A stretch of 64,000 nucleotides of DNA from Plantimonas leprariae (lineage in GTDB: Bacteria > Pseudomonadota > Alphaproteobacteria > Rhizobiales > Rhizobiaceae), in assembly GCF_008802405.1 (NCBI RefSeq), contig NZ_VZDO01000015.1:1-64000 (forward strand), in the 5' to 3' direction. Each line of letters begins with the position of its first letter. The stretch's first letter is position 1. A program made the position numbers and the translations under genes. Below are positions 1,646 through 21,732 of this stretch, in pieces. Under the pieces are notes generated by a model that saw only the letters and a list, made by a program, of their open reading frames with translations, did not search any database and was not told the origin of the DNA.

Positions 1646-1646
<1 letters not shown>

Positions 1647-2797
1647 TGCGCCCCCCCATCGAATTCATCGATCTGAAGGCGCAGCAGCACCGGCTTGCTG
1701 GCGCGGTCCAGAAAGCGGCGCTGGCTGCGATCGAGAGCGCTCAGTACATCCTCGGCCCACAGGTAACGGAGTTCGAAGAAAAGCTCGCTGCGTTCTGCGG
1801 CGCCCGGCATGTCATCGGCACGGCCAACGGCACGGACGCGATCGGCATCTGCCTGATGACGCTCGGCGTGCGGCCGGGCGACGCGATCATTTGTCCCGCC
1901 TTCACCTTCGCCGCGACGGCAGAGGCGGTCGCTTGGCTCGGCGCGACGCCGATCTTCGTCGATATCGACGAGGACAGCTTCAACCTCGATCCGGCGCAAT
2001 TGCCGATCGCCCTGGATACCGCGAAGCGCGCCGGCCTGAAACCGCGCGCGGTGATCGCGGTAGATCTCTTCGGTCAGCCGGCCGACTACGACGCGATCGA
2101 GAACTTTTGCCGGAACGAGAAACTCGCCCTGATCTGCGATTCCGCCCAAGGATTCGGCGCGACATACAAGGGCCGCCGTACGGGGCAGATCGGCGACTTC
2201 ACCACTGCGAGCTTCTTTCCCGCCAAACCCCTCGGCTGTTACGGCGACGGCGGCGCGATCGTGACGAACAGCGATGAGAGTGCCGAGATCATTCGATCGC
2301 TCCGCTTCCACGGCAAAGGCGACGACAAGTACGAGCACGTGCGGATCGGCATGAATTCGCGCCTCGACACGATCCAGGCCGCGATCCTCATCGAGAAACT
2401 GGCGATCTTCGAGGACGAGATCGCGGCACGCCAAGCAGTCGCGAACCGCTACGATGCCGGCCTGCACGACGTGGTGAAAACCCCGTCCGTGATGCCCGAT
2501 TGCCGCTCGGTCTGGGCGCAGTACACGCTGCGGGTGGACCCCCGGCGTCGGAGTGCGCTGATGGCCGAACTGAAGAGCAAGGGGATTCCGACGGCCGTCT
2601 ACTATCCCAAGCCGCTGAACGAGCAGGAGGCCTACCGCCGCTTCCCGGTCGCCGGCAACGGGCTCCCCACCTCGACGCAGGCGGCGAGCGAGGTGTTGTC
2701 GCTACCAATGCACCCTTACCTGGACGCCGATACGCAGGACTACATCATCGAGAGCGTCCGCGAGGCGCTCCTCGGCCGGCAATCCATCGCGGTGTGA
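1646..2797 (+). CDS. wbpE: DegT/DnrJ/EryC1 PLP aminotransferase (WbpE/WlbC type)
   Basis: This 383-residue sugar aminotransferase has NGTDAI (61-66) for phosphate binding, DSAQ (165-168) for the pyridine nitrogen, and the Schiff-base lysine in SFFPAKPLGCYGDGG (K194). In this pathway it transfers an amino group from glutamate to the 3-keto intermediate, giving UDP-GlcNAc(3NH2)A, which WbpD then acetylates. The C-terminal part (PKPLNEQEAY, LSLPMHPYL) is typical of the family. The gene overlaps both neighbours by a few bases. With the upstream genes it completes UDP-GlcNAc(3NAc)A synthesis. No 2-epimerase (WbpI) gene is visible, so the sugar may stay in the gluco form or the epimerase may lie elsewhere. 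Confidence 0.87.
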
Positions 2798-5123: not shown

Positions 5124-6725
5124 CTAGGCCCGGAAGGCCGCCTCGATCAGGCGCTGCGTGTACGGGTGTTCGGGGCGGGAGAGGACGGCTTCGGTGGGCC
5201 CGCGCTCGCGGACTTCGCCGTTCTGTATCACCACGACGTTGTGGCAGAGCGCCTTCACAACCTTCAGGTCATGGCTGATGAACAGGTAGGTGAGGCCGTA
5301 GCGCCGCTGGAGATCGCGCAGGAGTTCGATGATCTGCGCCTGCACCGAGAGATCGAGGGCGGAGGTCGGCTCGTCGAGGAGGACGAATTCCGGTCGTAGC
5401 ACCACCGCGCGGGCGATTGCGATGCGCTGGCGCTGGCCGCCGGAGAATTCGTGCGGGAAGCGGTTCAGGCAGTTCGGGTCGAGGTCGACGGCGGCGAGCG
5501 CCTCGCGCACCATCGTCTCGCGTTCGCGGCGGTCGCGCCCCATGCCGTTGACGATCAGCCCTTCCTCCACGAGGTCGCGCACCGACATGCGGGGGTTCAG
5601 CGAGGCGAAGGGGTCCTGGAACACGACCTGCAGCTTGGGCCTGAGCGGTCGCATCGCCGCCCTGTCTTTCCCTTCCAGATGCTCGCCCTGCCAAAGGATC
5701 TCGCCGCCGCGGGCGTTCAGGAGGCGCAGCATCGCCTTGCCGAGCGTCGACTTGCCGGAACCGGATTCGCCGACGATGCCGAGCGTCTCGCCGCGCCGCA
5801 CGTCGAGCGTGAGGTCGTTGACGGCGCGCAGCGAATGGGATTTCGAGCTGAACAGCCCGCCGGAGCGGATCTCGAAGAAGACGTCGAGGTTCCTCGCCTG
5901 CATCACGACAGGGGCGGCCTCGGTCAGCGGCTCCGGCACCCCGCGCGGCTCGGAGGCGAGAAGCTTCCTCGTATAGGCGTGGCGCGGGGCGGCGAACACG
6001 TCCTTCGTCGCGCCGCGCTCGACGATCTCGCCGCGCCGCATGACGCAGACCCGGTCCGAATGCCGCTCGACGATCCCGAGATCGTGGGTGATGAGGATCA
6101 TCCCCATGTTCCGCGACTTCTGGAGTTGCGAGAGGAGCGCCAGAATTTCCGCCTGAACCGTGACGTCGAGGGCAGTGGTCGGCTCGTCGGCGATGAGGAG
6201 GTCGGGCCCGTTGGCGATCGCCATCGCGATCATCACCCGCTGCCGCTGCCCGCCGGAGAGCTGGTGCGGATACTGCTGGAGGCGCATCTCGGGCTCCGGG
6301 ATGCGCACCTGCTTCAGAAGCTCGAGCGCCTCGGCGAGCGCCGCCTGCTTCTTCATCGGCCGGTGGGTGACGATCGCCTCGACGATCTGGTCGCCGATCC
6401 GGTAGAGCGGATTGAGCGAGCTCATCGGCTCCTGGAAGATCATCGCGATCCGCCCGCCGCGCACGGTCCGCATCTGCCGGTCCGACAGCTTGCCGAGATC
6501 GTGGCCGTCGAAACGGATCGCGCTCTCTTTCGAAAGCTTCGCGTTGGCGGCGAGGAGCCGCATGATCGCCCGCGAGGTGACGGACTTGCCGGAGCCCGAT
6601 TCTCCGACGATCGCCAGCGTCTCGCCGCGCGAAACGTAGAAGCTCGCGTCCCGTACCGCCGCCACCGCGCCGTCGTCGTGGGCGAAGGAAACGGAGAGGG
6701 CTTCGACCTCGAGGAGATGGGCCAT
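5124..6725 (-). CDS. alpha-galactoside ABC transporter, double ATP-binding subunit (AgpD-like; DppDF fusion)
   Basis: Two complete nucleotide-binding domains lie in 533 residues. The first has Walker A GESGSGKS at 41-48, LSGGQ at 156-160 and Walker B LLIADEP near 177-182. The second has GESGSGKST at 319-327, FSGGQ at 427-431 and VLLDEP near 448-453. A peptide-transporter (Opp/Dpp) C-terminal extension is present in both halves ([18 protein letters not shown]). This resembles YejF and other fused DppD-DppF subunits and would energise the two permeases encoded just upstream. It starts at ATG 6725, 11 bases after the upstream permease gene. A GH4 galactosidase heads the same operon, so alpha-galactosides are the likely substrate rather than peptides. 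Confidence 0.85.
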
Positions 6726-6736
6726 CGCTTGCGTCC

Positions 6737-7924
6737 TCAGGTCGAGTAGGGGTCGATCGCGTCGCGCAGCGCGTCGCCCAGCATGTTGAAGCCGAGCACG
6801 GCGACGAGGATCGCGCCGATCGGCACCAGGACCCACGGATAGGAGCCGAGCGTCTGGAGGTCGCTCGCGGCGTTGAGCAGCATGCCCCAGCTCACCAGGG
6901 GCGGGCGCACGCCGACGCCGAGGAAGGACAGGAAGCTTTCGAGAAGCACGATCGTCGGGATCATCAGGGTCGTCGAGACGATGACGTGGCCGAGGACGTT
7001 CGGCAAGATGTGCTTCAGGAGGATGCGCGGCGTCGAGGCGCCGATCGCCTCGGCCGCCGCGATGTAGTCGAGCCGGCTGACGAGCAGCGTCTTGCCGCGC
7101 ACCTCGCGCGCGAGCTGCGCCCAGCGCAGCGCCGAAAGGATCAGCCCGAGCCCGAAGAACACCACCAGCGCGTCGGTGTTGCGCGGGATCACCACGACGA
7201 GCGCGAAGTAGAGAGGGAGCTCCGGCAAAGCGAGCACGAACTCGACGACGCGCTGGATCCATTCGTCGCCGCGCCCGCCGAGATAGCCGGAGAGGATGCC
7301 GACCAGCGTTCCGACCGTGACCGAGATCGTCACCACCAGCGCCGCCATCAGCAGCGTCAGCCGCGAGCCGACGAGGAGGCGCGAGAGCATGTCGCGGCCG
7401 TCGCGGTCGGTGCCGAGGACGTGGAAGGAGCAGCCCTCCGGCGCGGCGAGGAGATGGCGCTCGAAGGAAAGGCCGAAGAAGGAGTAGCTCCAGCCCTTGC
7501 CGAGGAAGGCCGGCTGGCAGCGCGTCGCGGTGTCCACCGTCGGCACGAGCTGGAACGTGTTCGGATCGAGGTCGAAGGTGATCGGGTGGGTGAAGGGAAT
7601 GATGTGGAAGCCGTCCTCGGCGCGGAAGTTCAGGTCCTGCGGCGGCAGGTAGATCGCGTCGGCGTTCCGGGCGTTCGGGGCGTAGGGGCTGAGGAAGTCG
7701 GCGAAGAGCGCCGTCAGTATCAGGAGGGCGACGAGCGCCAGGCCGATCAGTCCCAGCGGATTGCGCCGGAACCTGCGCCAGACCAGCCCGGCATAGCTCC
7801 GCGAACGCACATTGGCCGCCGGCGCGGCGGCGTCGGCGAGGAGCGTATCCTCCTCGACGAGTTCCTTGGGGTGCAGGACCGCGTGGGCGTCGGTAAGCGT
7901 CGTCTTCGCGTCGAGCAGGGTCAT
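6737..7924 (-). CDS. alpha-galactoside ABC transporter permease (AgpC-like, DppC family)
   Basis: This 395-residue inner-membrane protein has a long hydrophilic N-terminus, then RRFRRNPLGLIGLALVALLILTALFADFLSPY, the usual DppC/OppC start. A roughly 90-residue periplasmic stretch follows, then the MetI-type core with the EAA loop EAIGASTPRILLKHILPNVLG and the family ending GFNMLGDALRDAIDP. It is longer than simple DppC (about 300) because of the extra periplasmic domain, a feature also known from YejE-type subunits. Its ATG overlaps the stop of the other permease gene (ATGA). It works with the neighbouring permease as the heterodimeric channel. Confidence 0.85.
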   Translation of the reverse strand: MTLLDAKTTLTDAHAVLHPKELVEEDTLLADAAAPAANVRSRSYAGLVWRRFRRNPLGLIGLALVALLILTALFADFLSPYAPNARNADAIYLPPQDLNFRAEDGFHIIPFTHPITFDLDPNTFQLVPTVDTATRCQPAFLGKGWSYSFFGLSFERHLLAAPEGCSFHVLGTDRDGRDMLSRLLVGSRLTLLMAALVVTISVTVGTLVGILSGYLGGRGDEWIQRVVEFVLALPELPLYFALVVVIPRNTDALVVFFGLGLILSALRWAQLAREVRGKTLLVSRLDYIAAAEAIGASTPRILLKHILPNVLGHVIVSTTLMIPTIVLLESFLSFLGVGVRPPLVSWGMLLNAASDLQTLGSYPWVLVPIGAILVAVLGFNMLGDALRDAIDPYST

Positions 7925-8931
7925 CAGGCGAAGGCTCCCTGCCGGATGCGGGGATCGAGGATGGCCAGCGCCACGTCGGCGAGGAAGTTGCCGATCACCA
8001 GGATCACCGACAGGATCATGAAGATCGAGGCGGTGACGTAGACGTCTTCGACGAGGAGCGACTGAAGCATCAGGGGGCCGATCGTCGGGATGGCGAGGAC
8101 GATCGCGGCTTCCAGCTCGCCTGAGACCATGTAGGGCATGATGAGGCCCTGGTTCATCACCAGCGGGTGGATGGCGTTCGGCACGGCGTGCTTCATCACC
8201 ACCTTGCGCTCGGGCAGGCCCTTGGCGCGGGCCGCCTCGATGAAGGGCTGGCGGAGCACGTCGAGAAGGTTGCCGCGCATGACGCGCAGGTTGTAGGCGA
8301 GGCCGCCGAAGGCGGCGATGAACACGATCGGCCAGACATGCCGCACGAGGTCCCAGAACTTTGCGAACGACCACGGCGCGAAGATGTACTGTGCCGAGAA
8401 CAGGGAGCCGATCGTCGCCGAGCGCCAGACGAAGGCGAGGAGGTAGAGGATCACCAGCGCCATGAAGAAGCGCGGGATCGTCATGCCGAGAAAGGCGAGC
8501 ACGGTCGCGGCGCGGTCGCCCCAGCGGTGCTGGTTGACGGCGGCGACGATGCCGAGGCCGCAGCCGATGACGGTGGCGAGGAGGTGGCAGGCGAGGGCGA
8601 TGCCGAGCGTCCACCAGATGCGCTCGCCGATGACGCTCATCGCCGGGCGGTTCTGCAGGAATGAAGGGCCGAAGTCGCCGCGCATGACGATGCCGCCGAC
8701 CCAGTTGGCGTATTGCACGGGTAGGGACGCATCGAGATGGAGGCGCTCGCGCGTCTGCTGCGCCAGCTTCTCGGCGTCCGCCTCGCCCATGCCGCCGCGG
8801 CTCATCGCCGTCGCCTTCACCGTGTCGGCGTAGTCGCCGGGCGGCGCCTGGATCAGCATGAACGACACGAGGCTCACCACGAAGACGAGGCCGAGCGCCG
8901 AGACGAAACGTCGGAACACGAAGGCGAGCAT
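7924..8931 (-). CDS. alpha-galactoside ABC transporter permease (AgpB-like, DppB family)
   Basis: The protein has 335 residues. The first membrane helix is LAFVFRRFVSALGLVFVVSLVSFMLIQ, followed by PPGDYADTV, as in DppB/OppB/YejB. The conserved LHLDASLPVQYANWVGGIVMRGDFG and the EAA loop EAARAKGLPERKVVMKHAVPNAIHPL contact the ATPase. The ending ILDPRIR is also typical. The gene follows the binding-protein gene after a 70-base gap that contains a perfect 12-bp stem-loop, and it overlaps the next permease gene. The operon headed by a GH4 gene suggests import of melibiose or raffinose. A true peptide substrate cannot be excluded from the permease alone. Confidence 0.86.
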   Translation of the reverse strand: MLAFVFRRFVSALGLVFVVSLVSFMLIQAPPGDYADTVKATAMSRGGMGEADAEKLAQQTRERLHLDASLPVQYANWVGGIVMRGDFGPSFLQNRPAMSVIGERIWWTLGIALACHLLATVIGCGLGIVAAVNQHRWGDRAATVLAFLGMTIPRFFMALVILYLLAFVWRSATIGSLFSAQYIFAPWSFAKFWDLVRHVWPIVFIAAFGGLAYNLRVMRGNLLDVLRQPFIEAARAKGLPERKVVMKHAVPNAIHPLVMNQGLIMPYMVSGELEAAIVLAIPTIGPLMLQSLLVEDVYVTASIFMILSVILVIGNFLADVALAILDPRIRQGAFA

Positions 8932-8957
8932 CGGGCGAGGCTCCCGGTTCGATGGGA

Positions 8958-8990
8958 CCGGCGCCGCCCAAGGGGAGGGGGCGGCGCCGG
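8958..8990 (-). terminator. perfect 12-bp stem-loop between binding-protein and permease genes
   Basis: Arms 8958-8969 and 8979-8990 are exact inverted repeats (CCGGCGCCGCCC against GGGCGGCGCCGG) around a 9-base loop. They fill the gap between the binding-protein stop and the permease start. No T-run follows on the minus strand, so it is unlikely to be an efficient intrinsic terminator. A role in protecting the upstream mRNA, or in partial termination, fits better. Confidence 0.55.
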
Positions 8991-9001: not shown

Positions 9002-11056
9002 CTAGCGGATGCCGGGCAGCGTACCGGCGGCCAGCTCGGGCACCTTTCCTTGCTCGGCTCTGGGCACGAACAGGCGTTCGCGCATCGAGCCGTCCTCCCC
9101 CCAGCCGTAGGCGACGACCGGCGTGCCGGGCGGCACGTTGCGGAAGCGCTTGTTGACGAGGATCGCGGCCGGCACGGAAACCAGGCCGAACTGGTAGACG
9201 TTCTCGGTCTGCTTCCGGTTGAAGGCGCGCAGCAGCTCGTTGCGCTTGCCCGAGTCCGGCTCCGACTGGATCTGCCGCATGATCGCGACCAGCTCGGTCT
9301 CGAAGGGTAGGAGCTCCTGCGGCTTCTCCGGCGTGCCGCGATGCCATTCCGGCCGGTTGAAGGCCAGCGGCGCGAGGGCGTCGAGGTTCATGATCGGCGC
9401 CTGGACGAAGCGGTCGCCGCGCCGGATCACCCAGTCCCACTGGCAACTGTCGATGAGGTTCACCAGCTCGGTGCTGTTCGGCTGGAGGACGACGTTGATG
9501 CCGACCTCGCGCAGCATCGTCACCAGCGACTGGGCGAGGCTCGTGTCGGTCGGATAAAGCGTGTTGTAGGCGAGGTTGACGTCGAGGTTCTGCCCCGCGA
9601 GCGGGCCGCCCGCCGGCCAGTTGACGATGCCGTCGCCGTTCGTGTCGGCGAAGCCGAGCCTGGCGAGCGCGGCCTTCGCGCCCGGAAGGTCGTAAGGGTA
9701 GAACACCGTCATGTCGGGCGAGCCGAAATCGCTTTCGGGGTGGAGCCCGCCGGCGAAGGGGATCGCGAAGGGCCCGCGCACCAGCGACTGACCGAGCGCC
9801 TGTTTGTCGATCGCCTGCGTCACCACGCGGCGGAAGGTGCCGTCGCGGTTCAGCTTGCGGATCGCCATGTCTCGGTCCGAGCGCACGCCGCAAACGGTGG
9901 AGTAGTTCGGCAGCACGCTCCAATCGATCGAGCGCGGGCCCCAGATGACCTTGGTCGGGAAGTCCGGCGTCTGCGCCTGGCGCATGGATTCGAGGTAGAG
10001 GCTCGGATCCTCCAGATTGGCGTAGTCGGCCGACCCCGCGACGGTCTGGATCGTGCGGTCCTCCCAGGTGGAGAGCTTGTACTGCACCTCGTCGAGATAG
10101 GGGAGCTGGTTGCCCTTGTCGTCGACCTCGTAGAAGTACGGGTTGCGGCGCATCACCATGATCTGATTCGGCCGGTAGTCCGTCACGGTCCACGGCCCCA
10201 TCGTCACCCAGGGCGTCTTGTCGGGCGAAAGCGCGTCGGCGTAGCTCTGGTAGGTGGCGTCCTTGTTGTATTTCGGATGAAGGGGCTTCAGGACGTGCGC
10301 CGGGCCGGGGCACATCTTCTGGAAGCCCATCTGGTAGAGGGTGGTGACCGGAAAGGCCTGGCTGAACGTCCAGCGGATCGTGGCCTCGTCCACCTTCTCG
10401 AGCTTCGTGCCCTCGCCGTAGGCGCCGGGCCGGCCCCAGGTGGCGACGTTCGGATCGTTCATGTTGTCCTCCCAGAGGAACATGACGTCGTCCGCCGAGA
10501 ACGGCTGCCCGTCCGACCATTTCGCGCCCTTCAGGAGGTGCATGGTCAGCGAACGGCCGTCCTCGGACCATTCCCAGCCCGTCGCGAGCTGCGGCAGCGG
10601 CTCGGTGTCGCCGGGGTTGAGCATCCAGACCGGCGCGGTGCGCACGAGGCACTGGCTGACGATCTCCTCGACGCCGCCCCAGGCCATGACGTTGCCGGCG
10701 ACCCAGTTCCAGCCCTGCGGCCTCGCGCCCGAAACGTGGCGGATGACGCCGCCGTACTCGCCGGCGCCCTCGACGCTGGACGTGTCGATCACGAGCGGCG
10801 TTTCGGGCAGGCGGTCCTTCAAGGGCGGCAGCTTGCCGGCCTCGGCCAGCTTCGCGACCCATTCCGGCTCCCTGTAGGCCGACAGCTTTTCCGGGCGCGC
10901 CAGCCGGGCGCGGTCGATCTTCACGCCCTTTTCGGTCTGGAGGCTCTTGCCGACCGGCGCGGGCTCGGGGCCCTTCAGTTCCTGTGCGCCGCTGCCCGCC
11001 GTCAGCGCCGCCAGCGACAGGGCCGCGAAGGCGCAGGTCGAAAGCCATCTCGTCAT
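9002..11056 (-). CDS. agpA: alpha-galactoside ABC transporter periplasmic binding protein (AgpA-like, SBP family 5)
   Basis: This 684-residue protein has a Sec signal peptide (RWLSTCAFAALSLAALTAG, cleavage near AQE). The body is of the oligopeptide-binding family 5 type: GGVIRHVSG, PQLATGWEWSEDGRSLTMHLLKGAKWSDGQPFSADDVMFLWED and FNRKQTENVYQFGLV. The length exceeds DppA/OppA (about 530) and fits the large subgroup that includes Sinorhizobium AgpA, a peptide-like binding protein reported to bind alpha-galactosides. The gene lies 76 bases after a GH4 alpha-galactosidase gene and before the permease genes. Regulation is probably through the AraC protein and the conserved site upstream of the GH4 gene. 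A YejA-type peptide role is the alternative. Confidence 0.75.
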   Translation of the reverse strand: MTRWLSTCAFAALSLAALTAGSGAQELKGPEPAPVGKSLQTEKGVKIDRARLARPEKLSAYREPEWVAKLAEAGKLPPLKDRLPETPLVIDTSSVEGAGEYGGVIRHVSGARPQGWNWVAGNVMAWGGVEEIVSQCLVRTAPVWMLNPGDTEPLPQLATGWEWSEDGRSLTMHLLKGAKWSDGQPFSADDVMFLWEDNMNDPNVATWGRPGAYGEGTKLEKVDEATIRWTFSQAFPVTTLYQMGFQKMCPGPAHVLKPLHPKYNKDATYQSYADALSPDKTPWVTMGPWTVTDYRPNQIMVMRRNPYFYEVDDKGNQLPYLDEVQYKLSTWEDRTIQTVAGSADYANLEDPSLYLESMRQAQTPDFPTKVIWGPRSIDWSVLPNYSTVCGVRSDRDMAIRKLNRDGTFRRVVTQAIDKQALGQSLVRGPFAIPFAGGLHPESDFGSPDMTVFYPYDLPGAKAALARLGFADTNGDGIVNWPAGGPLAGQNLDVNLAYNTLYPTDTSLAQSLVTMLREVGINVVLQPNSTELVNLIDSCQWDWVIRRGDRFVQAPIMNLDALAPLAFNRPEWHRGTPEKPQELLPFETELVAIMRQIQSEPDSGKRNELLRAFNRKQTENVYQFGLVSVPAAILVNKRFRNVPPGTPVVAYGWGEDGSMRERLFVPRAEQGKVPELAAGTLPGIR

Positions 11057-11132: not shown

Positions 11133-12620
11133 TCAGGCGCCCGGACGCTGCCCGAGCGCGCCCATCGTCCGCTTCGCCGCCGTCGCCTCGCGCACCTCGT
11201 CCACCGAGCGTACCTCGCGCCGCGCCGCGCCGGCCCATTCCCGGGTCTTCACCGTGCCCTTCGCCAGCCGCTCGCGCGCGGCGGGGATCGCGTCGGCATA
11301 TTGCGGCAGCCATTCGCCTTGCGCCACCAGCATCTCGTCCACCATCTGCCAGACTTCGTCCGGCGAGCAGATCGCGCCGACCAGCGGGTCGTGCAGGACC
11401 GCGAGCTTCAGGAGTTCCACGTCGCCGGTGACCGCGGCGTTCATCGCCATGCGCTGGACGTCGACGGAGGCTTGGCAGGTCGCGGCGCAAGCCGGCGATA
11501 GCGTCAGGCCCGCCACCATGTTCAAGCCGAACCGGTCGACGAAGCCGGTCGACTCGACGATGCAGTCGGCGGGCAAGTTGGTGATCAGCCCCCGGTTCTT
11601 GACGTTGAAGTGGCCGCGATAGACGCGCCCCGTTTCTAGCGCCTCGATGATGTGGCTCGCGTGCTCGTCGGTGCGCTTGGCGGGATCCAGCGGCCGGCCC
11701 GCCTCTTCGAGAAAGGCCGGGAAATCCGTCTCGAACCAGTTCCGGCTTTCGGTGGAATAGCGGAGATACCCGCCGGTCTCGCCGTGGATCCAGTCCGACA
11801 TGTCGATCCAGCGCGAGATTTCGTCCGGCCGCTTGCGGTACCACGGCAGGTACTCGGACAGATGCCCGTTCGATTCGGTGGAATAGAAGCCGAAGCGCTT
11901 CAGGACGTCGATCCGCACCTTTTCCTGGTTGGCGAAGACCGGATGGCGCTCGAAGGCGGCGACCAGCTCGTCCTTTCCGATCCGCCGGCCGTTGTGGCGC
12001 AGATCCACGTACCAGGTCTGGTGGTTGATGCCGGTGCAGATGAAGTCGAGCTCGTTCCGGTCGACGCCGAGCGCGCTCGCGATCTGCCGCCAGCCGTTCT
12101 GGACGCCGTGGCAGAGGCCGATCGTATCCACCTTGCCGTGGTCGATCGCCGCCCAGGTGTTGATCGCCATCGGGTTGGCGTAGTTGAGCAGCCGCGCGCC
12201 GGGCTCGGCCACCTCGCTTATGTCGCGGCAGAAGTCGAGGATCGCCGGCACGTTGCGCTGGCCGTAGAGGATGCCGCCGGCGCAGATCGTGTCGCCGACG
12301 CACTGGTCGACGCCGTATTTCAGCGGGATGCGGATGTCGCTCGCATAGGCCTCCAGCCCGCCGATGCGCGAGCAGTTCATCACGTAGCGCGCGCCCTCCA
12401 GTGCCCGGCGGCGTTCCGTCGTGGCGCTGACCGTCGTCGGCAGCTCGTTCGCCTCGACGATGCGGCGGACGATCCGCTCCGCCATGGAGAGGTTCTGCGC
12501 GCTGATGTCGGTGAGGGCGATATGCGCGTCGCGGAGTTCCGGTACCGAGAGGATGTCCGACACGAGCTTCTTGGTGAAGCCGACGGACCCGGCGCCGATG
12601 ATGGCGATCTTCACGGACAT
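11133..12620 (-). CDS. melA: glycoside hydrolase family 4 alpha-galactosidase, rhizobial MelA type
   Basis: This 495-residue NAD- and Mn-dependent GH4 enzyme has the dinucleotide motif IIGAGSVGF (7-15), NYANPMAI (146-153), and the metal-site Cys-His in GLCHGVQNG (C170, H171) with a second histidine in GINHQTW (H200). GH4 enzymes cleave through oxidation at C3 and elimination. CHxVQ rather than CN(I/V)P points to alpha-galactosidase and not a phospho-glycosidase. It is cytoplasmic and would cleave melibiose or raffinose imported by the adjacent transporter. The second GH4 gene at 13704-15074 is clearly divergent from it. A 25-bp repeated site lies 123 bp before the ATG. Confidence 0.82.
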   Translation of the reverse strand: MSVKIAIIGAGSVGFTKKLVSDILSVPELRDAHIALTDISAQNLSMAERIVRRIVEANELPTTVSATTERRRALEGARYVMNCSRIGGLEAYASDIRIPLKYGVDQCVGDTICAGGILYGQRNVPAILDFCRDISEVAEPGARLLNYANPMAINTWAAIDHGKVDTIGLCHGVQNGWRQIASALGVDRNELDFICTGINHQTWYVDLRHNGRRIGKDELVAAFERHPVFANQEKVRIDVLKRFGFYSTESNGHLSEYLPWYRKRPDEISRWIDMSDWIHGETGGYLRYSTESRNWFETDFPAFLEEAGRPLDPAKRTDEHASHIIEALETGRVYRGHFNVKNRGLITNLPADCIVESTGFVDRFGLNMVAGLTLSPACAATCQASVDVQRMAMNAAVTGDVELLKLAVLHDPLVGAICSPDEVWQMVDEMLVAQGEWLPQYADAIPAARERLAKGTVKTREWAGAARREVRSVDEVREATAAKRTMGALGQRPGA

Positions 12621-12743
12621 CGCAGTTCCTCCATGCCGGCCGGCCTTCGCGCCGGCCGCGCGGGCGATGGGGCAAATCCGCTCGCCGCACGATCTCTCAT
12701 TGGCAGGTTATCGCGACGGCTTCCGCGCCCGATAGACGCAAAA

Positions 12744-12768
12744 CGTGCGAACAGGGGTAAAATCGTGC
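12744..12768 (-). promoter_or_regulatory. candidate AraC-type operator, copy 1 (upstream of melA)
   Basis: This 25-bp site reads on the plus strand CGTGCGAACAG, then G, then GGTAAAATCGTGC. It differs at one base from 15185-15209. It contains two direct CGTGC boxes whose starts are 20 bp apart, about two helical turns, as is usual for an AraC/XylS monomer pair. It lies 123 bp before the GH4 start and just after the araC-type gene. Confidence 0.7.
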
Positions 12769-12779
12769 TCGGCGTGCCG

Positions 12780-13685
12780 CTACCGGGATGGAGCGGCGGA
12801 ACCCGCATACATGCCGCTGGTGCGGAAGTCCGTCGGGCTTGTGCCGTAGGCGCGGCGGAATGCCTTGGCGAAGTAGTTCGGGTCCTCGAAGCCGCAGTCG
12901 TGCGCGATGGCCTTCACCGCCATGTCGCCGCTTTCGAGCAGGCGCGCGGCGCGCCGCATCCGTTCGTTCAGGACGAATTCGCCGGGCGAGATGCCTTCGG
13001 CCGCGGAGAAGAGGCGGGTGAAATGTGCGCGGCTGAAGCCGGCGATCTGCGCCAGTTCCTCCACCGGCAGCGCGTCCGCCAGATGCGAGCGCACGTGGCT
13101 CTTCACGGCTTCGAGCGCGTTGCCGACCGGGGAGGGCGCTCCCATGTCCCGGTTCGGTCCGAGGATGTCGTCGTAGAGCGCCATCTGCGCCGCATAGGCA
13201 TGGGCTGAGGCCTCGCCCGGCGTCGTGCCGCCGCCGTCCATCAGCTTCAGGCATTCGGCGGCGATGGCATCGACCGTGCGCGACGCCAGGCGGAAGACCG
13301 GACCGGCCTGCTCCTGCACGGCGCGGTGGATGCGCAGCGCCTCCTGACCGTACATCGAGATCCAGAAGAACTCCCAGCGCCCGCCGTCCGGCACGGTATA
13401 GACGTGGTCGGAAGGGATGATCACCAGCATGGTCTCGCCGGGACCGACCGCAAGGCTGCGGCCGCCGAGCGCGAGGCGCCCGGTCCCCGAGATCGTGTGC
13501 TGGAGCACGGTGAAGGGCGTCGAGCCGCGCCGGCGACCATCCCATCGATAGCCGGCGGGATCGGTGACGACGTCGTAGCCGGTCGAGGTCGGCATGGTGT
13601 GGAGCCGGTGGCGGCTCCGCGCCAGCGTCACGATCCGCATCGCCGAGCCGTGCGCCCGGAACCGCCGCAGGATCTCCCCGTCCAT
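12780..13685 (-). CDS. AraC-family transcriptional activator (AgpT-like)
   Basis: The protein has 301 residues. An N-terminal cupin-like sensor (about 30-150; HTISGTGRLALGG, VGPGETMLVIIPSDHVYTVPDGG) precedes an AraC double helix-turn-helix (about 200-295). The latter has LAQIAGFSRAHFTRLFSAAEGISPGEFVLNER and the signature GFEDPNYFAKAFRRAYGTSPTDFR. It is encoded 18 bases after the E. coli-type melA gene and upstream of the second GH4 gene. Sinorhizobium AgpT, an AraC-like activator of the melA-agp operon, is the obvious counterpart. It probably binds the two 25-bp sites at 12744 and 15185 in response to an alpha-galactoside. Confidence 0.85.
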   Translation of the reverse strand: MDGEILRRFRAHGSAMRIVTLARSRHRLHTMPTSTGYDVVTDPAGYRWDGRRRGSTPFTVLQHTISGTGRLALGGRSLAVGPGETMLVIIPSDHVYTVPDGGRWEFFWISMYGQEALRIHRAVQEQAGPVFRLASRTVDAIAAECLKLMDGGGTTPGEASAHAYAAQMALYDDILGPNRDMGAPSPVGNALEAVKSHVRSHLADALPVEELAQIAGFSRAHFTRLFSAAEGISPGEFVLNERMRRAARLLESGDMAVKAIAHDCGFEDPNYFAKAFRRAYGTSPTDFRTSGMYAGSAAPSR

Positions 13686-13703
13686 GCTCCCTTCGCCGCC
13701 GCG

Positions 13704-15074
13704 TCAGGCGGCGCGGCGATTCCCCGCCGGCCGCGCCCATTCGGGCACGAAATCGCCGTGCGCGGCGAGGAGGTCGGTGACGAGGTTCCAGATCTGGTCG
13801 AGGTCGAGCTCGGCCGCCGTATGCGGGTCGAGCATCGCGGCGTGGTAGATGTGCTCGGGCTTCTCCTGCACCAGCGCCGCGACGGTCAGTTCCTGCACGT
13901 TGATGTTGGTGCGCATCAGGGCGGTGAGTTGCGGCGGCAGCTCGCCGACCACCGTCGGCCGGATGCCGGACGCGTCGACGAGGCAGGCGACCTCGGCGGC
14001 GCAGTTCGCCGGCAGCGAGGCGATCGCGCCGTTGTTGCGCAGGTTGCCGTAGATCACCGAGGGCTCGCCGGTCCAGACCGAGTTGACGATCGACGAGGCG
14101 TATTCCTTCGAGGGCTTCACCTCGATCCGTGTCGCCGAGCGGTACTCGTCGGCTTGGGTTCGCCAGCGCGCGATCTGCTCGATGCAGCGCTTCGGATATT
14201 CGTCGAGCGGGATGCCGAACTTCTCGATGAGGTCCTCGCGCCCTTCCTTGATGAAGTAGGGCGTGTATTCGGCGAAATGCTCCGAGCTCTCGGTGACGAA
14301 ATAGCCGAGCCGCGCCATCATCTCGTAGCGTACCTTGTTCGGGCAGCGCGGATTCCAGCTCGAAGGCTTCGGGAAACGCCCCTCGCGATAGCCTTTCAGC
14401 AGCGCCGGGTAGAGGTTCTCGTAGGAGCCGTCCGGCTGGCGGTGCTCGAATTCGAGGAAGAAGGCCATGTGGTTGATGCCGGCCGCCCGGTAGCGGATGT
14501 CGTCGACGGGAATGTCGAGATCGCGCGCGAGCTCCGCGGCGGTGCCCTGTACCGAATGGCAGAGGCCGACCTGCCGGATCGCCGGGAACTTCTCGGCGAT
14601 CGCCCAGGTGTTGATCGCCATCGGGTTGACGTATTGGAGCAGGATCGCCTCCGGGCAGACTTCCAGCATGTCGGCGCAGATCGCCCAGAGATGCGGCACG
14701 GTGCGAAGCCCGCGCATGATGCCGCCGACACCCAGCGTGTCGGCGATGGTGTGGCGCAAGCCGTAGCGCTTCGGTACCTCGAAGTCGGTGACGGTCGCCG
14801 GCTCGTAGCCGCCGATCTGGAAGGCGACGACCACGAAGTTCGCGCCGTCCAGCGCCGCGCGGCGGTCGGTGAAGGTCTTGACGCTCGCCTCGACGCCGAG
14901 CGTCGCGATCAGCTTGCGCACGACGATCTCGCTCTCCTCCAGCCGGTGCGGATCGATGTCCATCAGCCGTATTTCGGTGCCGCCGAGCGCCGGCCGCTGC
15001 AGCACGTCGCCGATGATGTTCTTCATGAACACCGTCGAGCCCGCGCCGATGAAGGTGAGTTTCGGTCCGGCCAT
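13704..15074 (-). CDS. melA: glycoside hydrolase family 4 alpha-galactosidase, E. coli MelA type
   Basis: This 456-residue protein matches E. coli MelA closely from memory: FIGAGSTVF (8-16), NPMAINTWA (150-158), GLCHSVQGTA (C172, H173), GINHMAF (H202), GYFVTESSEHFAEYTPYFIK, WTGEPSVIYGNLRN and YHAAMLDPHTAAELDLDQIW. It is NAD/Mn-dependent, cytoplasmic, and hydrolyses melibiose-type alpha-1,6-galactosides. I chose ATG 15074, where the Rossmann motif begins at once; an in-frame ATG at 15146 would add 24 non-conserved residues and overrun the region before the operator. It lies first in the transcription order, ahead of the AraC gene, with its own copy of the repeated 25-bp site 110 bp upstream. 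Confidence 0.9.
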   Translation of the reverse strand: MAGPKLTFIGAGSTVFMKNIIGDVLQRPALGGTEIRLMDIDPHRLEESEIVVRKLIATLGVEASVKTFTDRRAALDGANFVVVAFQIGGYEPATVTDFEVPKRYGLRHTIADTLGVGGIMRGLRTVPHLWAICADMLEVCPEAILLQYVNPMAINTWAIAEKFPAIRQVGLCHSVQGTAAELARDLDIPVDDIRYRAAGINHMAFFLEFEHRQPDGSYENLYPALLKGYREGRFPKPSSWNPRCPNKVRYEMMARLGYFVTESSEHFAEYTPYFIKEGREDLIEKFGIPLDEYPKRCIEQIARWRTQADEYRSATRIEVKPSKEYASSIVNSVWTGEPSVIYGNLRNNGAIASLPANCAAEVACLVDASGIRPTVVGELPPQLTALMRTNINVQELTVAALVQEKPEHIYHAAMLDPHTAAELDLDQIWNLVTDLLAAHGDFVPEWARPAGNRRAA

Positions 15075-15184
15075 GGTCGTTCCCCGTGGAAGCCCGGCCT
15101 CGGATATCGGCCGGGCATCGGTGATTTTGTATCCTCGGGCACGCACTATAGCCGCGCTCGCGCTCTCAGGCCTACCCGGCTTTT

Positions 15185-15209
15185 CGTGCGAACAGCGGTA
15201 AAATCGTGC
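15185..15209 (-). promoter_or_regulatory. candidate AraC-type operator, copy 2 (upstream of E. coli-type melA)
   Basis: This site is identical to 12744-12768 at 24 of 25 positions, with C replacing G at the twelfth base. The two TCGTGCG boxes are 20 bp apart. It lies 110 bp before the GH4 start and immediately after the end of the neighbouring oxidoreductase gene, so conservation cannot come from coding constraint. Confidence 0.7.
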
Positions 15210-16460: not shown

Positions 16461-16715
16461 CGATCAGCTCGTAGCGCCAAGCATGGAGGGCCGCCAAGGG
16501 GAGAACCGCTTCAAGCGAAGCGCGTCCGCACCGTCGGCAGGAAGCGGAGCGGCACGCGACGAGCTAAGGCTGGACGGAGGCGTTTCGACATCGCGGCGGC
16601 AAAGGCATCCATCTTGTTCCCCGGTTAGGCAACGGCTCTTCCTCACGCCTTGTCGCTGTTGTCCGCAGGCTTTATTGAGACGGGGCTCAGCGTTGAACGG
16701 CAGGAGTTCCGGAAG

Positions 16716-17738
16716 ATGAAGCATCTCGGCGAAGCGGTCATCGAAGCCCAACGCTCGCTGATCCTGTCCGTCGTCGAGAAGCATGTCGGCAAGGGACAGT
16801 CCTACGTGCTGATGGACTTTCCGAACTACCAGAACATCGGCGACAGTGCGATCTGGCTCGGCATGGCGAAGGCGCTGCGGCAGGTGACCGGCAAGCTCCC
16901 GAGCTGGGTCGGATATACGCCGCGCGACGTCGAGATCGTGCGCGAGCGCTATCCGGGGCAGCCCGTCTTCATCTGCGGCGGCGGCAATTTCGGCGACGTC
17001 TGGCGCGGCAAGGACGACCTGCGCTACCGGCTGCTGGAAGCGCTGCCCGACCAGCGGATCGTGCAGATGCCGCAGGCCATCCAGTTCCGCGACCCCGAAT
17101 TCATCGAATACGCCAAGCGGCTCATCGGGGCTCACAAGGATTTCCATCTTCTGGTCAGGGACCATCGAAGCCTCGACTTCGCGAAAACCAATTTCGATTG
17201 CTCGGTCGGCCTGGCGCCGGACACCGCCTTCTTCATAGGCAAGATCGAACCGCTGCCGACGGAGCGCGTCGAGACGCTGTACCTGTTACGCGACGACCGC
17301 GAGGCCGGCATCGAGATCCCGGAAGCGAAGAAAGCCGTTCCCGGGCCGGTGCGGGACTGGATGGACTGCCCGACCACCGTAACCAGGAAGAGCGCCTCGT
17401 CGGTGCTGAAGGCGGTCGCGCACGGCGACTTCTCGTCGGCCGCTTGGCGGTCCCAGCATTACGAGGACGTTGCGAACCGCCGCGTCCAGTACGGCGTGAA
17501 GCTGCTGTCCGCCGGAAAACGCATCGTCACGAACCGCCTGCACATCCACATCGTTTCGACGCTGATGAACATCCCCCACGTCGCGCTCGACAATAACTAC
17601 GGCAAGATCCACGGCTATATCGATGCCTGGACAGCCGCGAGCCCGCTTGTGCGGAAGGCGAAGAACGACCAGGAAGTGCTGACCGGCCTGTCGGAGCTGC
17701 CCTACGTGGCGAACGGCGACTGGCGGAACGCCGCCTGA
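16716..17738 (+). CDS. polysaccharide pyruvyl transferase family protein
   Basis: This 340-residue cytoplasmic protein has family features DFPNYQNIGDSAIWLG, PVFICGGGNFGDVWRG, IVQMPQAIQFRD, VGLAPDTAFF and TNRLHIHIVSTLMNIPHVALDNNYGKIHGY. The last block contains the conserved Arg/His pair of ExoV/WcaK-type enzymes, which add ketal pyruvate from PEP to a glycan sugar. I chose ATG 16716 because AGGAG at 16702-16706 sits at the right spacing; an upstream TTG at 16650 has no such site. Pyruvylation of an exopolysaccharide is likely, given the flippase and glycosyltransferase genes in the region. Some family members are glycosyltransferase-like, so the reaction is inferred. Confidence 0.78.
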   Translation: MKHLGEAVIEAQRSLILSVVEKHVGKGQSYVLMDFPNYQNIGDSAIWLGMAKALRQVTGKLPSWVGYTPRDVEIVRERYPGQPVFICGGGNFGDVWRGKDDLRYRLLEALPDQRIVQMPQAIQFRDPEFIEYAKRLIGAHKDFHLLVRDHRSLDFAKTNFDCSVGLAPDTAFFIGKIEPLPTERVETLYLLRDDREAGIEIPEAKKAVPGPVRDWMDCPTTVTRKSASSVLKAVAHGDFSSAAWRSQHYEDVANRRVQYGVKLLSAGKRIVTNRLHIHIVSTLMNIPHVALDNNYGKIHGYIDAWTAASPLVRKAKNDQEVLTGLSELPYVANGDWRNAA

Positions 17739-17740
17739 CG

Positions 17741-17764
17741 CTCGGGTCGGCGAACCGATCCGAG
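17741..17764. terminator. stem-loop between convergent genes
   Basis: Arms 17741-17750 and 17755-17764 pair over 10 bp with one G-T pair around a CGAA loop, 2 bases after the pyruvyltransferase stop. There is no T-run on either side. It may act as a bidirectional 3'-end structure between the convergent genes, but evidence is limited to the fold. Confidence 0.35.
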
Positions 17765-17846
17765 CCGACGCCCACCCCGTTGAAGCGAGATCGCTGCCGC
17801 AGCGAATACGAAGCCGCGGAGACGGCGGCCGCTTCGCCGCGAACGC

Positions 17847-19355
17847 TCAGGCGACCGGGCTCGCCGCCGGCGGCCGGCGCCGCAGCTTCGAGGTGAGCTT
17901 GGCGAGGATGCGCTGGATCTCGGTCTCCGGCCCCTGCGGCCGCTTCGCCGCTGCCCAGAGCGCGACGTTCGCCGCGACGTAGGCGACGGCCCCGACCAGC
18001 ACCAGGAACGCCAGCTCCAGTCCGAGTTCCGGTCGGCTTTCCAGCTTGCCGAACAGGGTGGAGGTCGCGAGAACCACCGCCGCCATCAGCGCGACGCTGA
18101 CCAGCGCCCGGAAGTTGGCGGCAAGCTGCCGGCGGAGGCCGACCGCGATCAGCCGCTTCACGAGCAGCATGTTGACGAGCGTGGACAGGAGGCCGGTCAG
18201 GACGCGCGCGTAGACGAGGCCGGGCAGGCCGCCGAAATACAGGCCGGCGATGATGATCGGCATGCGCACGCACAGCATCTGCGTGTCGCGCATGAACAGG
18301 AGCTTCGTCCGGCCGAGCGCCATGCCGAGCGGCTGGACGAGGCTGCCCAGCGTCTGCAGCGCGAAGATGGAGGCCAGCGCCTGCACGATGAAGATGATCG
18401 GCACCCACTTCTCGCCGAGGACGCCGCGCACCAGCGGGTCGGCGACGACCGCCATGCCGATGCCGGCGGGGAGCGCCACGAATGTGACGAGCGCCTGTGC
18501 CCGCTGGTAGGCGTTGGCGAGCCGCTCGGGCGCGTGCCGCACGCTGGCGAAGCCCGGATAGATCGTCGCCGTCAGCGGCGCCGTCGCTTCGCGGGTGGGC
18601 AAGGTCGAGAAGGTGTTGCCGACCGTGTAGTGGCCGAGCGCCGTCGCGTCGACGAGCTTGCCGAGGACGAGGTATTCGAACCGCCAGTTCAGCGTGTTGA
18701 CGATCTGGCCGAGCGTCAGCCAGATCGAGAAGGAGAACAGGTCCTTCAGGTGGCGGAAGGTGATCTTCGGCAGGAAGGGCAGGATCGAGTAGGAAACGAC
18801 GACGTTGGTGATCTGGTAGGACAGGAGCCCCAGAACCAGCGCCCAGTAGCTGTGGTAGACGGCAGCGACGAACAGCGTCACGAGGAAGCCGACAAGCTTC
18901 TGCGAGACCGTCAGCACGAAGTCCTGCCAGAAGATGAGCTGGCGCTGCAGCATCACGCATCGCGGATTGGCGATGCCGCTGAGCACGAGGCTGAAGCTTA
19001 GCGCCAGCAGCACGTTGAAGAGGCGCGGATCGCCGTAATAGGCCGAAACGGGATAGGCGCTCGCGGCGAAGCCGCCGCCGAGCAGGAGACCGCGCAGCGT
19101 TCCGATGGTCCAGGCGGCACTGAAATGCTCTTCGGACAGGTTCTCCTGCCGGATGAGCGCCTGGTTGAGCGACAGTTCGGTGACGGAATTCACGATCGTG
19201 ATCAGGGTCGTGCCGATCGCGACGAGGCCGAAGTCGGCCGGCACGAGATACCAGGCGAGGATGATCGTGTTGAGGGCGGTCAGCGCGTTGACGATGGCGC
19301 GCGAGACGCTCAGCCAGACGCTGCCCTTGATGAGCCGTTGCGTGACGTTGCTCAT
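17847..19355 (-). CDS. oligosaccharide/exopolysaccharide flippase (Wzx-like, MOP superfamily)
   Basis: This 502-residue integral membrane protein has about 12-14 predicted helices. It begins with TQRLIKGSVWLSVSRAIVNALTALNTIILAWYLVPADFGLVAIGTTLI, the usual start of the polysaccharide transporter (RfbX/ExoT-like) family. It also has NPRCVMLQRQLIFWQDF and YTVGNTFSTLPTREATAPL, both common in ExoT/WzxC-type proteins. Such proteins move lipid-linked glycan units across the inner membrane. The C-terminal 40 residues are basic and cytoplasmic. It converges with the pyruvyltransferase gene and probably serves the same polymer as the GTs at 2794-5116, though they are 12 kb apart. Confidence 0.85.
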   Translation of the reverse strand: MSNVTQRLIKGSVWLSVSRAIVNALTALNTIILAWYLVPADFGLVAIGTTLITIVNSVTELSLNQALIRQENLSEEHFSAAWTIGTLRGLLLGGGFAASAYPVSAYYGDPRLFNVLLALSFSLVLSGIANPRCVMLQRQLIFWQDFVLTVSQKLVGFLVTLFVAAVYHSYWALVLGLLSYQITNVVVSYSILPFLPKITFRHLKDLFSFSIWLTLGQIVNTLNWRFEYLVLGKLVDATALGHYTVGNTFSTLPTREATAPLTATIYPGFASVRHAPERLANAYQRAQALVTFVALPAGIGMAVVADPLVRGVLGEKWVPIIFIVQALASIFALQTLGSLVQPLGMALGRTKLLFMRDTQMLCVRMPIIIAGLYFGGLPGLVYARVLTGLLSTLVNMLLVKRLIAVGLRRQLAANFRALVSVALMAAVVLATSTLFGKLESRPELGLELAFLVLVGAVAYVAANVALWAAAKRPQGPETEIQRILAKLTSKLRRRPPAASPVA

Positions 19356-19959
19356 GACGTCGTCGCTCCGGTCGCGCGAGGGGCCGCCGCAGCCGACAGC
19401 TCGCTTCGTCCCGCGGCGCGAGCGTCAGGAATGGCGGCTGTCTCGGTCATGGCCATGTCGGTGTTCGAGGAAGCGGGGGAAAACGAACGGGAAGCGCCGA
19501 CTGCCGGGTTCAAGAATTCGGATCTGAACACGACGAGCCCATGGCGGCATCGGGTCTTGAGCCGGATCGATGCCGCGTGCCGAAAGCGGGAACGTGCCGG
19601 AAACTGGCGAAGGAGCGATCATACCGTTCTTCGGTCGGTTGGAGGTCGCTCATTCCGCCCGACCCGTCAAGCGATAGTTTTGCACTGCACCAATGCGCTC
19701 GCGGCAGAGTGGACGGCGGGCTGACCGCTGGCTGGCGCCGGCCGCCTCCGAAGCGTGACCGCAGGCCGTGACCGGATCGGTCCCGCTCCACGCCCGCACT
19801 CCGCAGTGCCGGACGAAACCTGCGGCATCGCGCGCATAACAGCCTGTTTTTGCGCTTATTTAAGGCCTTGCCCCTACAACCGAAGCGCGCCGAGACACCG
19901 CTCGCCCGCGTTTCGCGGTTCCGAACGGCATGACGGCAGGAAGGCATAAGGGTGCCGGC
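19356..19959. other. 604-base intergenic region before the first type I secretion operon
   Basis: Short open frames occur on both strands but none shows a family motif or a good ribosome site, and the translations are rich in R, P and S, as expected from GC-rich noncoding DNA. The region must hold divergent promoters for the flippase gene (minus) and the ABC secretion gene (plus). A short AT-rich patch with GCTTATTTAA near 19854-19863 is the likeliest promoter area for the plus strand. No confident -35/-10 pair was found. Confidence 0.4.
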
Positions 19960-21732
19960 ATGAGCGGTTTGGTCACGTCCCCGGAAGGCGAAGCTCAAAG
20001 CGAGCTCCGCACCGCCCTGAAGCGCTGCACCTCCGCTCTTGTCGGCGTCGGATTGCTCAGCGGCATGCTGAACGTGCTCTATCTCACCGGCTCGTTCTTC
20101 ATGCTGGAGGTCTACGACCGCGTCCTGCCGAGCCGCAGCGTGCCGACGCTCGTCGGCCTCATCGTGATCGCGGGCATCCTCTACGCCTTTCAAGGCGTGA
20201 TCGATGTCATCCGCGGGCGCATCCTCAGCCGGATCGGCGGGGCGATCGACGAGGCGATCAGCCCGCGCGCCTTTCAGGCGATCACCCGGCTGCCGCTTCA
20301 AACGGCCAATGTCGATTCGACGCAAGGCTCGCGCGACCTCGATTCCGTTCGCGGCTTCATGTCGGGACTCGGCCCGACCGCCTTCTTCGATCTGCCCTGG
20401 ATGCCGCTCTATCTCGGCATCTGCTTCGCCTTCCACCCGGCGATCGGCTGGGCCGCCTTTCTCGGCGGCGTCGTCCTCATCGCCCTCACCATATTGACCG
20501 AGCGACTGACGAAGAACCTCGTCAAGCGTTCCACCGGCTTCGGCAGCCAGCGAAACAGCCTGTCGGAGGTCTACCGCCGCAACGCCGAGGTTCTGCGCGC
20601 GATGGGCATGGAAGGCCGCATGGGGCAGGCGTGGGGAAGCGTCAACTCGGCCTACAACGACGCCCAGCTCCGCGCCGCCGACGTCACGACCCTGCTCGGC
20701 TCGATCTCGAAGACCTTCCGCATGGTGCTGCAGTCAGCCGTTCTCGCGGTGGGCGCCTATCTCGTCATCAACCAGGAAGCGACGGGCGGCATCATCATCG
20801 CGAGCTCGATCCTCAGCTCGCGGGCGCTCGCGCCGATCGAGCTGGTGATCGGGCAATGGAAGAGCTTCGTCGGTGCGCGCCAGAGCTGGGCGAGGCTGGA
20901 GAGCATCCTCGCGGCGGTGCCGGCGGAAACGCAGACGCTCGACCTGCCCGAGCCGAAGCGCAGCCTGATCGTCGAGGACGTGACCATCGTCCCGCCCGGC
21001 AGCCGCACGATCTCGGTGCAGGACGTGACGCTGCAGCTCACCGCCGGCCAGGGGCTCGGCGTGATCGGCCCGAGCGCTTCCGGCAAGTCCTCGCTGATCC
21101 GGGCCATCGTCGGGGCCTGGACCCCGGTGCGCGGCGCCGTCCGGCTCGATGGAGCCGCGCTGCAGCAGTGGAGCCCCGAACGGCTCGGCGTCCATCTCGG
21201 CTATCTGCCGCAGGACGTGCAGCTCTTCGGCGGCACTATCGCGCAGAACATCGCGCGCTTCGACCCGGAGGCCACCGACCAGGCGGTGATCGCGGCGGCG
21301 CGGGCGGCCGGCGTCCACGACATGATCGTCCGGCTTCCTGAAGGCTACGCGACCAATGTCGGCGACGGCGGTCAGGCGCTTTCCGCCGGGCAGCGCCAGC
21401 GCGTCGGCCTCGCCCGCGCGCTCTACGGCGATCCCTTCCTCGTGGTCCTCGACGAGCCGAACTCCAATCTCGACGGCGAGGGCGAGGAAGCCCTGACGCA
21501 GGCGATCCTTTCCGTCCGCAAGCGCCAAGGCATCGTGGTGGTGGTGGCGCATCGCCCGACCGCCCTGGCCTCGCTCAATCTCGTGCTCGTCATGCGGGAA
21601 GGTCGCGCGCAGGCCTTCGGCCCGAAGGACGAGGTGCTCGGCAACGTCCTGCGCCCGGTGGCGAACGCCTCGCGCGAGCCGGCCGTGCCGGAACTGCCGG
21701 CCATGCAGCAGCAGCAGATGGGAGTCGCCTGA
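19960..21732 (+). CDS. type I secretion ABC transporter, permease/ATPase (PrtD/HlyB family), copy 1
   Basis: The protein has about 590 residues. An N-terminal transmembrane domain (about 30-330; NVLYLTGSFFMLEVYDRVLPSRSVPTLVGLIVIAG) is followed by a nucleotide-binding domain. The latter has Walker A GPSASGKSS near 370, LSAGQRQRVGLARAL, and Walker B FLVVLDEPNSNLD near 493. There is no N-terminal C39 peptidase domain, which is the PrtD/AprD subtype. ATG 19960 follows AAGGG at normal spacing; an in-frame ATG at 19930 is possible. The stop overlaps the ATG of the membrane-fusion gene. It powers export of an unfolded protein, plausibly the repeat protein encoded at 23502. Confidence 0.88.
   Translation: MSGLVTSPEGEAQSELRTALKRCTSALVGVGLLSGMLNVLYLTGSFFMLEVYDRVLPSRSVPTLVGLIVIAGILYAFQGVIDVIRGRILSRIGGAIDEAISPRAFQAITRLPLQTANVDSTQGSRDLDSVRGFMSGLGPTAFFDLPWMPLYLGICFAFHPAIGWAAFLGGVVLIALTILTERLTKNLVKRSTGFGSQRNSLSEVYRRNAEVLRAMGMEGRMGQAWGSVNSAYNDAQLRAADVTTLLGSISKTFRMVLQSAVLAVGAYLVINQEATGGIIIASSILSSRALAPIELVIGQWKSFVGARQSWARLESILAAVPAETQTLDLPEPKRSLIVEDVTIVPPGSRTISVQDVTLQLTAGQGLGVIGPSASGKSSLIRAIVGAWTPVRGAVRLDGAALQQWSPERLGVHLGYLPQDVQLFGGTIAQNIARFDPEATDQAVIAAARAAGVHDMIVRLPEGYATNVGDGGQALSAGQRQRVGLARALYGDPFLVVLDEPNSNLDGEGEEALTQAILSVRKRQGIVVVVAHRPTALASLNLVLVMREGRAQAFGPKDEVLGNVLRPVANASREPAVPELPAMQQQQMGVA

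Follow-up and report, generated by a model that had tools for sequence, protein, structure and literature searches.

Introduction

The closest described relative of the system reported here is AgpT and the melA-agp genes on the pSymB megaplasmid of Sinorhizobium meliloti. According to the available text of one study, AgpT is an AraC-like activator needed for induction of the melA promoter (PmelA), assimilation of raffinose and melibiose requires melA and the genes downstream, and PmelA, with AgpT as its activator, has been put to use in physiological work and as a biosensor of galactosides (PMC4254191). In a 64,000-nucleotide stretch of Plantimonas leprariae (contig NZ_VZDO01000015.1, positions 1 to 64,000; hereafter the window), two near-identical sites precede two glycoside hydrolase family 4 (GH4) genes. 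We assign a probability of about 0.88 to the reading that these sites are operators of an AgpT homologue, defining a two-operon alpha-galactoside regulon composed of agaL2-agpT (operator 2) and melA-agpABCD (operator 1).

Like pSymB, the window combines an AraC-type activator (54-55% identical between the two) with GH4 and family-5 ATP-binding cassette (ABC) transporter genes. S. meliloti has one operator found so far, with agpT divergent from melA and the annotated agpT start codon inside the operator; the pSymB of strain R14 carries the same kind of operator, GCACAGAATTACCCATGAAAGCACA, between the two genes. In the window, by contrast, agaL2-agpT and melA-agpABCD run in one direction, there are two operators, and the agpT start is not overlapped. 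A divergent agpT-melA pair around one shared operator, absent here, is the usual arrangement and not a required one, as Rhizobium sp. C1 and C4 depart from it too.

Wider comparisons concern the mode of activation. E. coli MelR is an AraC-family activator of alpha-galactoside genes with a site sequence different from that of the window, and the half-sites of AraC, RhaS, XylS and MtlR also differ in sequence. AraC (araI1-I2) and RhaS bind paired half-sites in direct repeat that adjoin or overlap the -35 region, those of AraC being spaced 21 bp apart, compared with 20 bp in the window. The available text of PMC4514859 describes an upstream half-site stronger than the downstream one for MelR (melAB), RhaS and MtlR, as seen here, and places the two direct-repeat half-sites of Pseudomonas MtlR and XylS next to or overlapping the -35 region, as proposed here. 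AraC-family activators of this mode are already known, and a homologue of the regulator has been characterised; the novelty seems to lie in the operator, in how widely it occurs and in the arrangement with two operators. No description of an AgpT operator was met in the open-access literature searched, although one may stand in the original papers of 1998 and 2000. The operator provides a specific, testable predicted binding site for AgpT and lets the regulon be predicted in many Hyphomicrobiales, where one operator tracks galactosidase genes through several rearrangements.

Two near-identical sites precede the GH4 genes

Operator 1 (12744-12768, minus strand) precedes the melA-like gene GH4_1 and the agp transporter genes, and operator 2 (15185-15209, minus strand) precedes the agaL2-like gene GH4_2 and agpT. 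Read on the minus strand, the 25-bp cores are GCACGATTTTACCCCTGTTCGCACG (12768-12744) and GCACGATTTTACCGCTGTTCGCACG (15209-15185), identical at 24 of 25 positions. The core of operator 1 is composed of a distal half-site, GCACGATTTTACCCCTG, a 3-bp spacer and the first 5 bp of a proximal half-site. In both sites the GCACG/CGTGC boxes start 20 bp apart. The GH4 start codons lie 123 nt (operator 1) and 110 nt (operator 2) downstream, and both sites are noncoding, following the stop codons of the AraC gene by 11 nt and of a DAO-family gene by 6 nt, respectively. Direct comparison and re-measurement thus bear out the initial annotation of this DNA, made from the sequence alone, in its account of the match, the distances, the noncoding position and the box spacing.

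Searched with the 25-mer at up to three mismatches, the 4.77-Mb genome yields these two sites and no other. The scan pattern put forward in the initial annotation captured a real site with a wrong gap: N11 yields 0 exact matches, and the true gap is N10. With this correction, CGTGCGAAC-N10-TCGTGC matches exactly only at the two window sites, both before GH4 genes, with 1 further match at one mismatch. Relaxed to three mismatches, the split pattern is useless as a regulon scan, giving 332 genome matches against 179 for the reversed control. Within the window, only the two operators match the 13-base half-site pattern GCAYRNNWTYACC exactly. Forty first-order Markov simulations of the window produced no 25-mer pair with at most one mismatch, compared with 135 overlapping pair positions in the real window, the two operators among them; the other groups sit within open frames, among them both GH4 genes and frames for ABC-type ATPases, and are apparently coding sequence shared by paralogues.

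A pair of near-identical copies separated by 2.4 kb could also be what is left of a mobile element, or a 25-bp interspersed repeat. This origin is rejected on the copy number of two in 4.77 Mb; moreover, both copies occupy the same place relative to GH4 genes, and the window has no Rfam match, and thus no known regulatory RNA family detected in it.

The adjacent regulator is a predicted AgpT homologue

The AgpT-like gene (12780-13685, minus strand) encodes an AraC/XylS-family protein of 301 residues, with an N-terminal AraC_binding domain (57 bits, cut-off 21.1), the ligand-binding and dimerisation domain of the sugar-responsive branch, and a C-terminal double helix-turn-helix region matching HTH_18 (85.9 bits, residues 211-289) and, in two stretches, HTH_AraC (80.3 bits), both above cut-off. 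Among the best 40 of 244 records, AraC proteins of the S. meliloti and S. medicae megaplasmids are 54-55% identical to it over residues 1-301. These homologues adjoin a LacI gene and a family-5 binding protein gene, the same neighbours that the available text of PMC11387232 gives for agpT (SM_b21649). By this similarity and gene context, the window protein is classed as an AgpT homologue. It is the sole regulator among 18 Pfam-scanned open frames between 73 and 24392, 15 of them with a match.

The site accompanies agpT across the order

Searching 397 genomes of the order at E <= 1e-40 identified AgpT in 55. The degenerate site pattern GCAYRNNWTYACCNNNNNNNGCAYR, scanned in the same 397 genomes, has 106 matches in 93 genomes and lies at most 18 bp from the AgpT match in 53 of the 55 AgpT genomes. 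In 52 of the 55, the site is one direct repeat, GCACAnAATTACCC-N6-GCACA, located at the 5' end of agpT on the opposite strand and facing a GH4 gene; the exception among the 53 is the window's genome with its two copies. Both AgpT genomes missing the pattern (G087 and G121) possess the site with one mismatch (L054 and L204), and a melA-like GH4 gene is present on the far side of the site in all 54 AgpT genomes besides the window's. The 20-bp spacing is common to 53 of 55 AgpT genomes, as counted with an exact pattern that itself fixes the spacing. The two single-mismatch genome matches of the degenerate pattern (L173 and L174) lie inside long open frames and were dropped. The pattern also recurs as GCACAATTTTACCGGCCCGGGCATG or close variants in G239, G273, G302 and G343, AgpT-less genomes of one genus.

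Rhizobium sp. C1 and C4 separate the site from the regulator gene. Their agpT is located ~137 and ~54 kb from agaL2, respectively, on the same contig, with melA on another contig, and the complete pattern occurs exactly twice per genome, before the agaL2-like and the melA-like GH4 genes. At the agpT starts themselves an exact distal half-site persists alone, lacking a proximal counterpart (the full pattern is missed by 3 mismatches); it is either a coding remnant or an autoregulatory half-site. The agpT of C4 (L240) adjoins an apparent Lrp-type regulator gene and a hydrogenase small-subunit gene, as read from the DNA.

A control set comprised the best 80 of 500 agaL2-like loci. AgpT is encoded in 6 of them; the site lies upstream of agaL2 in 5 (in L061 with 1 mismatch) and before a melA-like gene instead in the sixth (L067). 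Among the 74 loci without AgpT, 72 have no site within 300 bp upstream, the best matches carrying 4-6 mismatches, and the remaining two are Rhizobium sp. C1 and C4, where it is present. In 70 of these 74 loci agaL2 is preceded, on its own strand, by an AgpA-like match and is therefore probably an internal or last gene.

Because the site is conserved at agpT order-wide and persists before GH4 genes where agpT is elsewhere, AgpT is by far the best candidate for binding the two sites, probably acting like a class II AraC activator. The assignment to the AraC protein, proposed in the initial annotation, gains comparative support from the 53 of 55 genomes and the two with one mismatch, from the C1 and C4 sites before GH4 genes, and from the 72 of 74 AgpT-less agaL2 regions devoid of the site. 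Recognition by an unlinked LacI, GntR or other AraC protein, with AgpT as a mere neighbour, finds a foothold in the LacI gene adjoining agpT in S. meliloti, but is improbable given this distribution and the lack of any other regulator among the scanned frames. The site is moreover a direct repeat, unlike LacI and GntR sites, which are usually palindromic.

Operator and promoter anatomy

Sixty-seven promoters were aligned on the site, L067 and L221 among them being apparently one and the same locus, and reduced to 31 representatives less than 70% identical. The resulting consensus is AGCACAaAATTACCC.T.a.aGCACaA.ct..CTCTa (capitals >= 70%, small letters >= 50%), in which the 20-bp spacing is fixed by the anchor template itself and is not independently proven. 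The distal half-site is more conserved than the proximal one, whose end falls near the place expected for a -35 box. A weak -10-like signal (CATAAT, CATACT, GCTAGC or GATAAC) follows 55-58 bp after the first site base.

In each operator, two half-sites of ~17 bp are repeated directly at a spacing of 20 bp: the distal one, GCACGATTTTACC, is strong, and the weaker proximal one begins with the same GCACG. The conserved 25 bp of the window run from the distal half across the spacer into the proximal half, of which they take in the first box. The core proposed in the initial annotation therefore stands, but not its extent, as the predicted functional unit is longer than 25 bp, its promoter-proximal half-site running ~12 bp further toward each gene. 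The proximal half-site of operator 1 (GCACGTTTTGCGTCTAT; 12732-12748, minus strand) is kept at the orthologous promoter of the congeneric genome G398 and recognisable in Aureimonas jatrophae. Its counterpart at operator 2 (GCACGAAAAGCCGGGTA; 15173-15189, minus strand) is partly kept in G398 and A. jatrophae (CCCCGCTAGG). The putative -10-like hexamer of the melA promoter, GATAAC (12707-12712, minus strand), is positioned 36 bp past the beginning of the proximal half-site, a place taken by CATAAT, CATACT or GCTAGC in relatives; at the agaL2-agpT promoter the candidate hexamer is CTATAG (15146-15151, minus strand). The half-site spacing of 20 bp agrees with the ~20-21 bp of class II AraC-type activator sites. 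The -10-like offset of 55-58 bp would suit a proximal half-site overlapping the -35 box, but no such box is recognisable.

A possible third AgpT half-site, ATACAAAATCACCG (15119-15132, minus strand), lies downstream of promoter 2 and is offered as a lead only. Of 300 mononucleotide shuffles made per region, 2 score as well. Elements of this TTTTACCC/AATCACC type occur downstream of several promoters and upstream of the GH4 starts (the window, L080, L122 and L141 of S. meliloti). The shuffle fraction is at most 0.01 in the forward orientation in L210, win_2, L080 and L122 and in the reverse orientation in L054, and most regions fall short of it. These matches vary in spacing, and related loci do not count as independent cases; the element is possibly a looping or auxiliary site and is not general.

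Coding overlap and other contrary evidence

Where agpT and melA diverge, the distal half and the agpT reading frame share sequence, so that the operator also encodes the AgpT residues G-N-S/F-V-L (e.g., L141 around 9001, and L032-L060). The AgpT N-terminus is readable in 40 of 61 such loci and unreadable in 21. All 40 keep the frame open across the distal half, and in 25 the site contains an ATG at the same fixed position (26 have any ATG). Consistent with this overlap, the R14 agpT coding sequence is annotated as starting inside the operator. The open frames and the distal half-site kept alone at agpT of C1 and C4 could be taken to mean that the motif is conserved solely as code for the AgpT N-terminus. 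We consider this very improbable: the conserved N-terminal codons do not extend to the proximal half, and the sites of the window, G398 and A. jatrophae and the GH4 sites of C1 and C4 are free of overlap with the agpT start, yet carry the two halves at the same spacing (degenerate in A. jatrophae). From these sites it follows that coding constraint is not the whole story.

Several results nevertheless weigh against the AgpT-operator reading. As the distal half overlaps the agpT frame and agpT of C1 and C4 retains just that half, part of the site conservation at agpT may be coding or serve another role. The degenerate pattern has 52 extra matches, 44 in 40 of the 342 AgpT-less genomes and 8 in AgpT genomes, compared with 11 matches for the reversed-pattern control. 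They are taken as mostly coding background, which is unproven; the one inspected, in the AgpT-less family member G336, has no agp gene within 7.5 kb. No -35 box is recognisable in the aligned promoters, and the paper on S. meliloti start sites has none of agpA, agpT and SMb21648 in its main text, where the single match to 'mela' is an author's name, leaving no mapped start. At operator 2 the proximal half-site is degenerate and the -10-like hexamer lies ~2 bp farther than at operator 1. Lastly, the A. jatrophae sites (L061), with 7 and 8 mismatches to the window 25-mer, score lowest among galactosidase-promoter sites with AgpT alongside.

Evolution of the two copies

Of 394 genomes of the family, just two hold the 25-mer at up to three mismatches, the window's genome and G398, each with two copies. 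Both G398 copies read GCACGATTTTACCCTTCTTCGCACG, 25/25 identical to each other. They share the same two changes, at positions 15 and 17, relative to both window copies, and the third difference falls at the single position where the window's second copy is unusual. AgpT is 85% identical between the two genomes. In the window, identity between copies is 24/25 in the core, 16/50 upstream and 5/20 downstream, and in G398 too it ends at 25 bp. The 20 bp downstream of each core match the orthologous G398 promoters at 15/20 and 11/20.

Recent duplication of an operator-bearing stretch, when agaL2 moved to the front, would make the likeness one of descent and not of function. The half-site spacer, variable among relatives, is identical in both window copies, and in A. 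jatrophae and Rhizobium sp. C1 and C4, which likewise carry two operators, the copies are dissimilar. Identity ends sharply at 25 bp, however, while the downstream 20 bp are kept with the orthologous G398 promoter, so that we regard recent copying as an unlikely sole account. Copying may still be the origin of the likeness, and as an explanation it is no competitor of AgpT binding.

The like changes in both copies, seen in two species, could stem from either short-tract conversion or joint adaptation to AgpT. A tentative scenario, which we hold possible and would not press, has concerted evolution linking the two operators to one another and to the regulator. The ancestral operator would have held the agpT start region, linking operator sequence, AgpT N-terminus and autoregulation, and the move of agpT behind agaL2 would have freed this constraint and allowed the GCACG-type operator.

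Proposed mechanism

For the two sites as AgpT operators, anatomy and the named relatives suggest the following course. An AgpT dimer would contact the distal half-site and, upon binding an alpha-galactoside such as melibiose or raffinose (the presumed inducers), its second subunit would take the proximal half-site. Thus positioned, AgpT could recruit RNA polymerase to a -10 element ~36 bp after the proximal half start, at a promoter without a good -35 box. Activation from operator 1 would drive melA-agpABCD, and activation from operator 2 would drive agaL2-agpT, presumably co-transcribed. Since agpT starts only 18 bp after the end of agaL2, positive autoregulation is predicted. Where agpT and melA diverge, AgpT sitting on the operator would instead mask the start of its own gene and could thereby hold down its production.

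Gene content and surroundings

On the minus strand, the order is DAO oxidase, operator 2, GH4_2, AraC gene, operator 1, GH4_1, binding protein, permeases and ATPase. The collinear order of agaL2-agpT and melA also occurs in A. jatrophae and G398. The DAO-family oxidase gene (16460-15216, minus strand) is the upstream neighbour of operator 2. GH4_2 (13704-15074, minus strand; 456 residues) is agaL2-like and GH4_1 (11133-12620, minus strand; 495 residues) is melA-like, and both exceed the alpha-galactosidase cut-off of NF011657 (NCBIfam), the two scores being 569 and 667 against 486. Downstream, the AgpA-like solute-binding protein (9002-11056, minus strand; 684 residues) matches SBP_bac_5 at 180.8 bits and is accompanied by two permeases and a double ABC ATPase. 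The AgpB-like permease (BPD_transp_1) occupies 7924-8931, and the AgpC-like permease (OppC_N and BPD_transp_1) occupies 6737-7800, its 5' end being approximate within an open frame of 6737-8971, both on the minus strand. The AgpD-like double ABC ATPase (5124-7262, minus strand) has ABC domains starting at residue 181, its true start probably lying further in. This gene content identifies the locus as a predicted rhizobial agp/mel alpha-galactoside system.

The flanks of the agp locus (1646-5116 and 16650-23042) encode proteins of polysaccharide type (a DegT aminotransferase, a glycosyltransferase, a pyruvyl transferase and a flippase) and an ABC exporter/HlyD pair.

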